Origin: Methanomassiliicoccaceae archaeon DOK
GTDB lineage: Archaea; Thermoplasmatota; Thermoplasmata; Methanomassiliicoccales; Methanomethylophilaceae
Direction: 5' to 3'
DNA: 64,000 bases
Assembly (NCBI GenBank): GCA_009911715.1
Contig: CP047880.1
Coordinates: 1,054,001 to 1,118,000 of the forward strand
Position 1 is the first letter of the stretch. The number at the start of each line of letters is the position of its first letter. A program made the position numbers and the translations under genes. The notes below the pieces were generated by a model that worked only from the letters and a program-made list of their open reading frames with translations, was not told the DNA's origin and did not search any database. Below are positions 51,724-55,465 of this stretch, one piece after another.

Positions 51724-52464
51724 ATGAAGCTCCGCAGCCAGTCGTCAGGAGGGAACCCGAGGCCGATGGAAGTCTGGAACGCCAACGTGTACTTCGACGA
51801 CAGGTCCGGGGCCAAGAACCGCCCGGTGATCGTGCTCGAGAAGAGGGGCGAGGAGTACACGGTGTACATGGTCACCTCCCACCCCCACCACCCGGAGACC
51901 GACATCAGACTCATGGAGCCCTACGAGGTTATGCTGGACAGGACCTCCCACGTCCGCACCGACCGCCCGTTCAGACTCCCTGCGGACAAGTTCAACTACA
52001 AGCTCGGGGAGCTGTGCTACGACGACTCGGAGATGGTCAGAGCCATCTTCGAGAGCAGGACGAAGGAATCCCGCCAGTACAGGCGCGGGAACTACCGAGG
52101 CGGGACGGATGGATCCGGGGGACGCTGCGACGGAGATCGTGTCCGCGGCCGCCAGCAGGCTATGCCTCGACATGCGCTTCCTCTCCAGGGCCGTGCTCTC
52201 GCTGAGGACCGCTGTCGAACCCGGAGAGGGGAGGCCGTTTTGCGACGGCAGGACGGTCACGTTCCGCCACGACACGGTCATCACATCCTTCCGGAACGAG
52301 CCCAACTCCGTCACCCGCGACCTTGCCCACTGCGTCCTGCACTGCGTCCTCGGCCACGGGTCGCCCGGCAACCCGCCCGAGACCGACCTGGCGGAGGACA
52401 TGCTCGTGGAGTACGTCCTCGACTGCCTGGACACACCGCACACGTCCGTCCCCGGCAGGGATGA
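51724..52464 (+). CDS. PemK/MazF-like protein, frame continues into next gene
   Basis: The first 120 residues have the PemK pattern MEVWNANVYFDDRSGAKNRP then VIVLEK, a strand-rich core, and YKLGELCYDDSEMV near its end. PemK/MazF toxins are mRNA interferases. No antitoxin gene is adjacent. The frame continues about 125 residues into the vWA gene with Arg/Pro-rich sequence, so the true end is probably near 52090 and a stop may have been lost. GTTATACG at 51694-51701 supports a leaderless start here. Confidence 0.65.
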   Translation: MKLRSQSSGGNPRPMEVWNANVYFDDRSGAKNRPVIVLEKRGEEYTVYMVTSHPHHPETDIRLMEPYEVMLDRTSHVRTDRPFRLPADKFNYKLGELCYDDSEMVRAIFESRTKESRQYRRGNYRGGTDGSGGRCDGDRVRGRQQAMPRHALPLQGRALAEDRCRTRRGEAVLRRQDGHVPPRHGHHILPERAQLRHPRPCPLRPALRPRPRVARQPARDRPGGGHARGVRPRLPGHTAHVRPRQG

Positions 52465-53371
52465 CAGGATGTTCGCCTGCGAGAGGCAGTTCGCCAAGGC
52501 GGGCGCGCCGTCGGCGGACCTGCTGTCCCAGGTGGTGAGGGACACGTCCCCCTGGCAGCTGGAGTCCCACAGGAAGATGTTCGTCAGGGACGACCACTCC
52601 CGCCGCGGGGCCCTTGACGACTCCGTCTGGAGGGAGCTCTCCCAGCAGGTCATGGCCGAGGTGGAGGGTTTCGTCAGGGACGACGAGGGGAGGACCGGGG
52701 CGCTGATGTCGATCCTCAGGATACGCAACCGCAGGAGGTACGACTACCGCTCGTTCCTGCGCAAGTTCATGGCCAGCCGCACCGTGGTCAGGGAGAGCCA
52801 GACGGAGTTCGACCCCATCTACTACACCTACGGGCTGTCCGTCTACGGGAACATGCCGCTGATCGACTCCCTGGAGCAGTCAGACTCCGGCAGGGTGGAG
52901 GAGTTCGTCATCGCCATAGACACCTCCGGCTCCACCATGAGGGGACCCGTGGTCAGGTTCCTCGAGGAGGCCTTCGACGTCCTCAGGCAGACCCACGCCG
53001 GCCGCGGGGCCAACCTCCATGTCATCCAATGCGACGACATGGTCCGCTCGGACGACGTCGTCACCTGCGAGGGCGACCTGCGCAGGCTGGTTAACGGGTT
53101 CGAGCTCAGGGGCGGAGGGGGCACCGACTTCAGGCCGGTGTTCGACTACGTCGACAGGATGGTCGAAGAGGGCGGGTTCAGGGACCTCAGGGGCCTGATG
53201 TACTTCACGGACGGGTTCGGCACGTACCCGACGAGGCGTCCGAGGTACGACACCGCGTTCGTGTTCTGCGACGACAGGTACAGGGACCACGAGGTGCCGC
53301 CGTGGGCAATGAGGATAGTGGTCAGGACCGAGGACATAATGGGGCCTGCGCAAACCCCAAATACCCAGTGA
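52109..53371 (+). CDS. vWA-domain protein (DUF2201-like), metallopeptidase site altered
   Basis: A 420-residue protein. The N-terminal half resembles the DUF2201 putative metallopeptidase domain, but where HExxH is expected the sequence is DLAHCVLHCVLGH, with Cys75 in place of the catalytic Glu. The C-terminal von Willebrand A domain has the MIDAS residues in AIDTSGSTM, GGGGTDFRP and YFTDGFG. Next to it a MoxR ATPase is encoded; such pairs act in protein remodelling and, in some cases, in conflict systems. Confidence 0.82.
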   Translation: MDPGDAATEIVSAAASRLCLDMRFLSRAVLSLRTAVEPGEGRPFCDGRTVTFRHDTVITSFRNEPNSVTRDLAHCVLHCVLGHGSPGNPPETDLAEDMLVEYVLDCLDTPHTSVPGRDDRMFACERQFAKAGAPSADLLSQVVRDTSPWQLESHRKMFVRDDHSRRGALDDSVWRELSQQVMAEVEGFVRDDEGRTGALMSILRIRNRRRYDYRSFLRKFMASRTVVRESQTEFDPIYYTYGLSVYGNMPLIDSLEQSDSGRVEEFVIAIDTSGSTMRGPVVRFLEEAFDVLRQTHAGRGANLHVIQCDDMVRSDDVVTCEGDLRRLVNGFELRGGGGTDFRPVFDYVDRMVEEGGFRDLRGLMYFTDGFGTYPTRRPRYDTAFVFCDDRYRDHEVPPWAMRIVVRTEDIMGPAQTPNTQ

Positions 53372-53393
53372 GCAGAAGAGATGGTGAGAGAAG

Positions 53394-54830
53394 ATGGACA
53401 TTCAATCCGCCAAAGATCAGGTGAAGGACGCGATCCGCTCCTATCTGGACAAGGATCCCGCGGGGAACTACGTCATACCGAGGAACAGGCAGAGGCCGAT
53501 AATGCTCATCGGCGCGCCCGGCCTGGGCAAGACGGCGATAATGTCGCAGATCGCGGCGGAGCTGGACATAGGCTACGTCGGGTACACCATCACCCACCAC
53601 ACCCGCCAGTCAGCCATCGGGCTCCCCATGATCGAGACCCGTGAGTACGGGGGCGTGGAGCACCCCATCACCAGGTACACAATGAGCGAGATAGTCGCCT
53701 CGGTGTACGAGGCCATGGAGACCCAGGGCCGCAGGGAGGGGATCCTGTTCATCGACGAGGTCAACTGCGTGTCCGAGACCCTCTCCGCCGCGATGCTGGA
53801 CCTCCTGCAGAACAAGAAGTTCGGCCCGCACCCCATCCCGTCCGGATGGGTGCTCGTCGCGGCCGGGAACCCCCCGGAGTTCAACTCCTCCGCCAGGGAG
53901 TTCGACATCGCGACCCTGGACAGGATCAGGGTGATCGACGTCGAGCCCGACACGGACGTCTGGCTCAAGTACGCCATGAGCGCCGGGATCCACGACGCCG
54001 TCACGTACTACCTGCAGGTCAAGCCCCAGAACCTCCTCAGGATAGAGAACACCCCGGACGGCCCCGTCTTCGTGACGCCAAGAGGCTGGGAGGACCTGTC
54101 CATGGTCCTGAGGGAGCACGAGCGCCTCGGACTGGACGTAGGCGTGGACCTGATCTCGCAGTACGTCAGGTACCCCGAGATAGCGGCGGAGTTCAAGCGC
54201 TACATGGACTTCCACAGGAAGTACTCCGAGGACCACGACGTGGACGCCATCCTCGACGGCAGGGCCGCGGATCCAGACACGATCGCCGGCGCCGGGGCGG
54301 AGGAGAAGATCTCGCTGATCTCTGTGATCATAGGGAGGCTCAACTCCGAGGCCGAGGAGGGCATGGACCTGCTGGAGCTCCGGAGGAGGCTGGAGGGCGC
54401 AGGGTCAGGCGACCTGGACCGCATCAGGGACGACCTGAGGAGGTCCCTGGAGGGCAACGGGACCGCCGATTCGAGGCGCACGGCGGCGTACTGCCTGTCC
54501 GCGCTCAGCGGGGCCGGTGACGCCGACGCCGCCAGGGAGGACTGCCGCAGGGCGTTGGACGACGTCCGCAGAAGGTTCGACTCGCACCTCGGGAACGCCA
54601 TGTCGTTCATGGTGTCGGCCTTCGGACAGGGCCAGGAGCCCGTCTCGCTGCTCGCCGGGCTGATCGGATGCTACAGCGTCGTGATGTTCTCGGACGTGGA
54701 CGGCCCGCTGTACAGATACAACGAGGAACTGCTCACCTCGGGGCGCGACAGGCGCCTCGTGGAGATGACGGAGGGTCTGCGATGGCAAACAAGATCGAGA
54801 GCGAGCCCTGCGAAGGCGGACGCCGCATAA
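53394..54830 (+). CDS. MoxR-type AAA+ ATPase
   Basis: A 478-residue AAA+ protein with Walker A GAPGLGKT (40-47), Walker B ILFIDEVN, and sensor region VAAGNPPEFNSSAREFD. The C-terminal 200 residues are helical. MoxR ATPases usually partner with a vWA protein, here encoded 22 bases upstream. The last 49 bases overlap the next gene. Energy-driven remodelling of a client is the inferred role. Confidence 0.9.
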   Translation: MDIQSAKDQVKDAIRSYLDKDPAGNYVIPRNRQRPIMLIGAPGLGKTAIMSQIAAELDIGYVGYTITHHTRQSAIGLPMIETREYGGVEHPITRYTMSEIVASVYEAMETQGRREGILFIDEVNCVSETLSAAMLDLLQNKKFGPHPIPSGWVLVAAGNPPEFNSSAREFDIATLDRIRVIDVEPDTDVWLKYAMSAGIHDAVTYYLQVKPQNLLRIENTPDGPVFVTPRGWEDLSMVLREHERLGLDVGVDLISQYVRYPEIAAEFKRYMDFHRKYSEDHDVDAILDGRAADPDTIAGAGAEEKISLISVIIGRLNSEAEEGMDLLELRRRLEGAGSGDLDRIRDDLRRSLEGNGTADSRRTAAYCLSALSGAGDADAAREDCRRALDDVRRRFDSHLGNAMSFMVSAFGQGQEPVSLLAGLIGCYSVVMFSDVDGPLYRYNEELLTSGRDRRLVEMTEGLRWQTRSRASPAKADAA

Positions 54831-55465
54831 CCAGGCTGGTCTCCACGGACCGCGACATCGTCGTTCCGGACTCCGTAGACGGGGCCGCGGTCGTCGCGAT
54901 CGGACCGTTCTTCCTCTCCGGATCGCCGGCGTCCGACGGCAGGACCGTCACCGTGCCGGGGACCGTCGCGGAGATCGACCGCGACGCCTTCGGCGGGATA
55001 ATCGGGATCAGGGGGATAGCCTACGGCGGGACGATGGAGGCCTTCTGCTCCCTGGGGCTCGACGCCGAGTTCGACGTGGAGGTCTCCACAGCCGACGGGC
55101 ACAGGTTCGGTTTCCTCTCCGGGTACCCCATGAGGTTCCCGGCGTTCGACGAGGCCATCCAGTCCATGAACTTCAAGATGACCCAGGAGCTGGCCGTCAG
55201 CAGGCTCAGGGACCCGGTCCTCCTGACGCCGGAGTGCGGGGAGCGCTACCGCCGCTACCTGTCCAGCAGGATAATGCCCCGTGCGGAGCAGGCGGTGACC
55301 TCGGGGGACACATCAAGGCTGGCCGAGCTCCTGTCCACGGGAATGTTCGACGACGCGTCGGTCAGGACGCTGATGGAGAGGTCCCTGCGCTCCGGGAAGA
55401 CCGCCGTCACGAGCATGCTCATGTCGGAGCTGTACTCGAGAAGAAAAGGAGAGAAGAGGGCCTGA
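54782..55465 (+). CDS. Unknown protein with BspA-like repeat and helical tail
   Basis: A 227-residue protein. Residues 20-75 (IVVPDSVDGAAVVAIGP, VTVPGTVAEIDRDAF) look like BspA-type leucine-rich repeats; the rest is helical. It overlaps moxR by 49 bases, so translation is coupled. It may be the client or adaptor of the MoxR-vWA pair; no family is recognised. Confidence 0.6.
   Translation: MANKIESEPCEGGRRITRLVSTDRDIVVPDSVDGAAVVAIGPFFLSGSPASDGRTVTVPGTVAEIDRDAFGGIIGIRGIAYGGTMEAFCSLGLDAEFDVEVSTADGHRFGFLSGYPMRFPAFDEAIQSMNFKMTQELAVSRLRDPVLLTPECGERYRRYLSSRIMPRAEQAVTSGDTSRLAELLSTGMFDDASVRTLMERSLRSGKTAVTSMLMSELYSRRKGEKRA

Follow-up and report, generated by a model that had tools for sequence, protein, structure and literature searches.

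What does a MoxR-like ATPase do when its von Willebrand factor A (vWA) partner carries a peptidase-like domain that lacks its catalytic glutamate, and which of the genes around the pair belong to the same system? These questions are raised by positions 51724-55465 of a 64,000-nucleotide stretch of the genome of Methanomassiliicoccaceae archaeon DOK (contig CP047880.1, positions 1,054,001 to 1,118,000; the whole stretch is called the window below). This gut-type methanogen has a genome of 1.89 Mb in one contig, and the nearest relatives with a name are 'Candidatus Methanomethylophilaceae' metagenome-assembled genomes, one of them from sheep omasum. A preliminary description, made from the sequence alone, placed here four plus-strand genes (PemK-like, vWA, MoxR and a fourth protein) beside the border of an island, and read them as one unit, possibly a ternary conflict system. 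All four frames are indeed there, on that strand. However, the real unit consists of three genes, which code for the vWA protein, the MoxR ATPase and the fourth protein, a BspA-type leucine-rich-repeat (LRR) protein with a helical C-terminal domain; the PemK-like gene is a neighbour. We think that this trio may be a three-component, ATP-driven, non-proteolytic protein-remodelling machine whose client adaptor is the LRR protein, and we give this reading a probability of about 0.55.

Three genes that travel together

In the window, the vWA gene (52109-53371, plus strand, 420 amino acids) is followed by the gene of the MoxR-like AAA+ ATPase (53394-54830, plus strand, 478 amino acids) and by that of the LRR partner (54782-55465, plus strand), whose start lies inside the MoxR gene with an overlap of 49 nucleotides. 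Relatives of the vWA protein are found in 21 of the 31 genomes of the genus (window counted) and in no other genus among the 60 nearest genomes; in a sample of 293 genomes from the phylum, only copies from the genus itself match the greater part of the profile, and in three other genomes the match is confined to the vWA core. Outside the archaea, relatives occur in many Lachnospiraceae and related Clostridia, with a match in 107 of 200 sampled Lachnospiraceae genomes. A search of plasmids returned generic MoxR proteins only. Near full-length vWA homologues (34-37% identity) are also present in three faecal 'Bacteriophage sp.' records (MT837937, MT837836 and MT839739); these are short unannotated fragments, possibly bacterial DNA carried over, and we made no use of them.

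In the 18 other archaeal loci that are not cut off by the end of a contig, the LRR gene always lies directly downstream of the MoxR gene, which bears out the earlier suggestion that the MoxR-vWA pair has a conserved further partner. In Lachnospiraceae, it stands beside the vWA gene in nearly all loci of a first set. Of 20 loci drawn independently from the 107 matching genomes, 19 have an LRR gene next to the pair or near it, as do three of four further loci of the subfamily that came from other searches, so that the later draws total 22/24. The association persists through reshuffling of the genes, since the orders LRR-vWA-MoxR, vWA-MoxR-LRR and LRR-MoxR-vWA were all seen. By contrast, none of 15 loci of canonical-type DUF2201 proteins, all but one of which include a nearby MoxR gene, has an LRR gene. 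The association of glutamate loss (see below) with an LRR neighbour has a P value of about 5e-8 when loci are treated as independent, but this figure is only indicative because the loci are related.

The identity of the fourth protein is supported by orthologues, by structure prediction and by gene neighbourhood. The LRR_5 family is matched by 14 of 30 family members (best 9e-14) and by all 10 further bacterial partners tested, and a profile of the family matches solved BspA-type LRR proteins (4gt6 at 1.3e-50). An iterated profile ties the archaeal orthologues to the protein beside the vWA gene in the Lachnospiraceae loci. In the AlphaFold2 model (predicted local distance difference test score, pLDDT, 86), a short, beta-rich LRR region at residues ~15-115 precedes a seven-helix C-terminal domain at ~120-226; the top Foldseek match of this model is the LRR protein TpLRR, a weak one (E 2e-3). 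No secretion signal was evident by eye in the window copy. The LRR protein is the fastest-evolving member of the trio, with a median identity of 20% between archaea and bacteria, versus 32% for the vWA protein and 41% for MoxR, and its repeat region ranges from about two repeats to that of a partner of more than 1,000 amino acids. In bacteria, 42 of 50 unique C-termini of LRR partners have a tail of hydrophobic, acidic and again hydrophobic residues (FEL, LELDF, LEDW), a pattern shared by 18% of the vWA proteins, 32% of the MoxR proteins and 12% of the products of other neighbouring genes. Lachnospiraceae examples are L041:5009-5971 and L150:5768-6847.

A peptidase-like domain without its glutamate

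The vWA protein of the window matches DUF2201 (PF09967) with 48.4 bits, versus a cut-off of 26.4, as do all 37 family members. Its vWA domain is C-terminal and is preceded by a pseudo-metallopeptidase domain of the DUF2201_N type (residues ~1-172) and a conserved linker; PF13203, the DUF2201_N family, is matched by 22 of the 37 members (best 7e-13). The motif region, near residues 71-83, reads DLAHCVLHCVLGH, and the motif itself, HCVLHCVLGH (residues 74-83, positions 52328-52357, plus strand), has a cysteine where HExxH has its glutamate, as the preliminary description had remarked. In the alignment of 37 proteins, H74, H78, H83, D97 and D105 are invariant. Among 59 motif-bearing members, the glutamate position is occupied by M in 37, C in 10, S in 4, L in 3, I in 2 and by Q, T or V in one each; it is never a glutamate. 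A sequencing error can thus be ruled out. The cysteine is a local state of the window, its sister species having Ser or Met, and cysteine catalysis is ruled out as a property of the subfamily, being unlikely since the residue is not conserved. The earlier proposal that catalysis was either lost or cysteine-based while metal binding persisted therefore stands for the loss of the glutamate with the metal-ligand histidines kept, and falls for the cysteine.

Canonical DUF2201 relatives, some of them encoded in the same genomes, keep HExxHxxxxH (HEVMHCVLSH, HEFLHAALMH and similar), which makes the third histidine an old trait and the general-base glutamate the sole loss. We infer that the N-terminal domain is a structural or binding domain without proteolytic activity, because this glutamate is absent; it may bind a metal, because the three histidines are kept. 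Loss of the glutamate does not by itself define the system, as one canonical-type MoxR-DUF2201 pair (L187:3137-5395) has lost it (HTVLHCALGH) and has no LRR gene nearby. Butyrivibrio proteins of ~630 amino acids (L199, L200 and L202; also L122-L124 and L131) carry tandem DUF2201_N-like motifs, the first HC(I/L)LHNCFGH, without the glutamate, and the second HEF(L/M)HAAL(L/M)H, with it.

The metal ion-dependent adhesion site (MIDAS) of the vWA domain is intact: D271, T272, S273, S275, T339 and D340 are invariant in the same alignment (DTSGS, residues 271-275, at 52919-52933, and T339-D340 at 53123-53128, plus strand). In the AlphaFold2 model the N-terminal domain mostly has pLDDT 80-96. The linker segment 224-261 is highly conserved, yet modelled with low confidence, as would be expected if it became ordered only on a partner. 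Foldseek searches with this model returned mostly vWA domains, including the MIDAS domain of Mdn1 and NorD; since no zincin was among the matches listed, the assignment of the N-terminal domain rests on the PF13203 matches of the 22 members. Sequence searches of solved structures with the vWA protein and with PemK gave nothing useful.

The MoxR protein matches AAA_5 with 29.3 bits (cut-off 22), whereas AAA_3 (18.7 bits) stays under its cut-off of 27, as does the bpMoxR model in the scan of the window (15.8 bits, cut-off 27). Its Walker A, Walker B, sensor 1 and arginine residues are intact, and they are conserved in 27 MoxR sequences. The family signature is THHTRQSAIGLP. Judged by its sequence, the stretch from strand 2 to Walker B could accommodate a helix-2 insert.

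Neighbouring genes and history of the module

The PemK/MazF-like gene (51724-52107, plus strand) has a tRNA gene on one side and the vWA gene on the other. The window protein reaches 19.1 bits, under the Pfam cut-off of 23.1, and an orthologue (L108) reaches 28.8. The closest relative (L028) ends in ...YRRGNY followed by a stop, where the window has a sense codon (52096-52098), and the open frame extends to 52464, some 356 nucleotides into the vWA gene. We do not regard this long extension as a real domain: it is absent from the closest relative and has an off-frame composition, with a GC content at third codon positions of 0.50 versus 0.92 for the PemK core. The frame likewise runs past the position of the L028 stop in three other species (L066, L024 and L073).

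We judge this gene to be a flanking core gene of the genus, outside the module. It is directly upstream of the module in 11 species of the genus, abutting or overlapping it in most. However, orthologues (53-64% identical) are present in four species that have nearly complete genomes and no module (G007, G018, G024 and G030) and away from the module in at least seven species that have one (G001, G003, G006, G009, G013, G017 and G026), and PemK is found at no Lachnospiraceae module among the loci examined. PemK is thus ruled out as a conserved component, and the idea of a four-gene unit survives for the vWA, MoxR and LRR genes only. A transporter of the type downstream of the window module is close to PemK, on the same strand, in 9 of 13 PemK loci apart from the module, and in the PemK-linked species it likewise stands downstream of the module. 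The simplest history is that the module was inserted between PemK and this transporter in one clade.

As for the island border, a phage-type integrase gene (50453-51496, plus strand; PF00589, 56.5 bits) abuts a tRNA-Ala(CGC) gene (51533-51609, minus strand; ARAGORN), and the four genes lie on the far side of this tRNA. They are therefore just outside the island, next to its border as the preliminary description had it, and the integrase does not belong to the module. The same tRNA-Ala stands beside the module in loci of five other species.

In the vWA tree, all 17 archaeal proteins form one clade (support 100/100), which is flanked on either side by bacterial copies when a canonical protein is used as root. 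This suggests that the archaeal module was probably acquired once from bacteria; the direction of transfer is probable rather than proven, since the outgroup branch is very long. The bacterial neighbourhoods are stable within lineages (thyA, coding for thymidylate synthase, with a dihydrofolate reductase gene; an epimerase gene with a tRNA pseudouridine synthase gene; a Mur-ligase-type gene), housekeeping contexts that are unlike those of a fast-moving defence locus.

A possible remodelling machine and its rivals

In the mechanism that we favour, the MoxR-like AAA+ ring would be the motor, the vWA protein its co-chaperone and the LRR protein the adaptor that recognises clients. A MoxR hexamer would engage the vWA protein, the metal of the MIDAS would grip an acidic residue in the LRR protein or in its client, and ATP hydrolysis would remodel the bound protein, the pseudo-zincin N-terminal domain serving as a structural or binding part without proteolysis. 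In the NorQ-NorD system, a finger of the vWA protein enters the pore of NorQ, and NorD uses its MIDAS to bind an acidic patch on the target (PMC13036017, PMC9976466). Because NorD uses its MIDAS and finger in this way, we would guess, by analogy, that the C-terminal tail of the bacterial LRR partners is a candidate MIDAS ligand and that residues 224-261 might be the segment inserted into the MoxR pore. The divergence of the LRR protein and its variable repeat length are what one expects of a recognition part, which, together with the shared tail of the bacterial partners, supports the adaptor role. Complex formation, this adaptor role, metal binding and the absence of proteolysis are all things that we infer.

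Several observations weigh against this interpretation. In the window, the LRR protein is too diverged to match Pfam on its own, and the vWA protein has no PF13203 match, its N-terminal domain being too diverged as well. The C-terminal tail pattern was defined after the sequences had been viewed, and it occurs in none of 20 archaeal LRR partners. The LRR protein may also be a client or a sensor rather than an adaptor. Finally, genes are inserted between vWA and MoxR in three species, so strict co-transcription is not required; the insertions are genes that we could not identify (L066), an ABC transporter ATP-binding gene with others (L067) and an antisense alpha/beta hydrolase gene (L070). A more detailed version of the remodelling hypothesis is correspondingly tentative, and we would not bet on it as a whole: the dead peptidase domain would have become a metal-dependent docking domain, an LRR protein with a conserved acidic C-terminal peptide would select clients, the machine would be widespread among gut anaerobes, a single transfer would have led from Lachnospiraceae to host-associated methanogens, and the machine might load cofactors into anaerobic enzymes that the two groups share.

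Maturation of metalloenzymes is the rival that we take most seriously, although we consider it rather unlikely. MoxR and the vWA protein would open a target for insertion of a metal or cofactor, the pseudo-zincin domain would bind the metal and the LRR protein would be the adaptor to the target. The best-studied MoxR-vWA pairs (NorQD) do insert metal, and the three histidines are kept without the catalytic glutamate. In addition, one Lachnospiraceae LRR partner (L162:7441-9192, minus strand) carries an N-terminal fusion to a CobW/HypB-type GTPase (PF02492, 1.4e-29) in a locus that also holds B12-binding, URO-D and RACo genes. However, this is the sole such case seen, and a general link of the module with corrinoid methyltransferases was discarded as confined to this locus; nor is any enzyme gene constantly linked to the module. 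A ternary conflict system sensu Kaur et al. 2020, directed against invaders, was suggested by the preliminary description; in the form in which the LRR protein would sense the invader, it seems to us less probable still. The MoxR-vWA core with a third gene is indeed the same, the LRR protein evolves fast and varies in length, and the module is patchy in the archaeal genus (21/31). Against this, PADLOC gave no convincing match to a defence family, all of the third components that we found described (VMAP, iSTAND, FtsH, beta-propeller, vWA-L and TERNS3) are absent, no effector domain is fused to the vWA protein (Pfam finds DUF2201 only, with little sequence left beyond the vWA domain), and the bacterial copies sit among housekeeping genes. 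The conflict role is for these reasons unproven.

The two remaining explanations are, in our opinion, very improbable. One is a four-gene system with PemK as effector, or in a toxin-antitoxin-like pairing with the module; for all the close linkage in 11 species, the occurrence of PemK without the module, or elsewhere in at least seven module-bearing species, and its absence from Lachnospiraceae modules refute it as a conserved association. The other, an active peptidase in which the cysteine, or an acidic residue situated elsewhere, substitutes for the glutamate, could appeal to the invariant H74, H78, H83, D97 and D105 and to the cysteine of the window clade, but a position that may be M, C, S, L, I, Q, T or V offers no consistent nucleophile.

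How new would such a machine be? MoxR-vWA ternary systems have been described with six other third components (PMC7159879; extended in 2021, PMC8195603), and what they share with the trio is MoxR, vWA and a conserved third protein; in the trio this third protein is an LRR_5 protein and there are no fused effectors. The main text of Kaur et al. 2020 (PMC7159879) contains neither DUF2201 nor 'leucine-rich', and LRR appears once. In group 2.2 jumbo phages, a vWA cochaperone is fused to an N-terminal metallopeptidase domain and paired with MoxR (PMC7824862); this metallopeptidase-vWA protein is probably a DUF2201 protein. Canonical DUF2201-MoxR pairs resemble the trio in their two-domain vWA architecture, the histidines of HxxxHxxxxH and the nearby MoxR gene, but they have the glutamate (14 of 15 loci) and no LRR partner, and their MoxR is usually encoded upstream and is shorter, mostly 358-383 amino acids. 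NorQ-NorD is likewise built from a MoxR-like ring and a vWA protein in which a distinct N-terminal domain and a linker accompany an intact MIDAS; the trio differs by its pseudo-zincin N-terminal domain, its added LRR partner and the lack of a linked NOR-like target. TpLRR (6mlx) and 4gt6 share LRR_5 repeats with the N-terminal part of the LRR partner, which differs from them by its helical C-terminal domain, its acidic tail in bacteria and its operon with MoxR-vWA. We know of no multicellular host of the trio, unlike the hosts of the Kaur systems. In the open-licence literature we found no description of an LRR-vWA-MoxR trio for DUF2201, COG3864 or LRR combinations, an absence that is not proof. 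Thus, the LRR third component seems to be new among the described MoxR-vWA ternary systems that we found, the MoxR-vWA core being already known.

MoxR-vWA machines occur across prokaryotes, and for most of them we know of no client. A dedicated, strictly linked LRR partner would give a handle on how these machines choose their clients. The trio is present in about half of the sampled genomes of Lachnospiraceae, one of the dominant families of the gut, and seems to have passed from bacteria to methanogens. It also offers a clear example of a peptidase domain that has become non-catalytic, for which glutamate-bearing relatives in some of the same genomes can serve as controls; the role of such dead domains is therefore directly testable.

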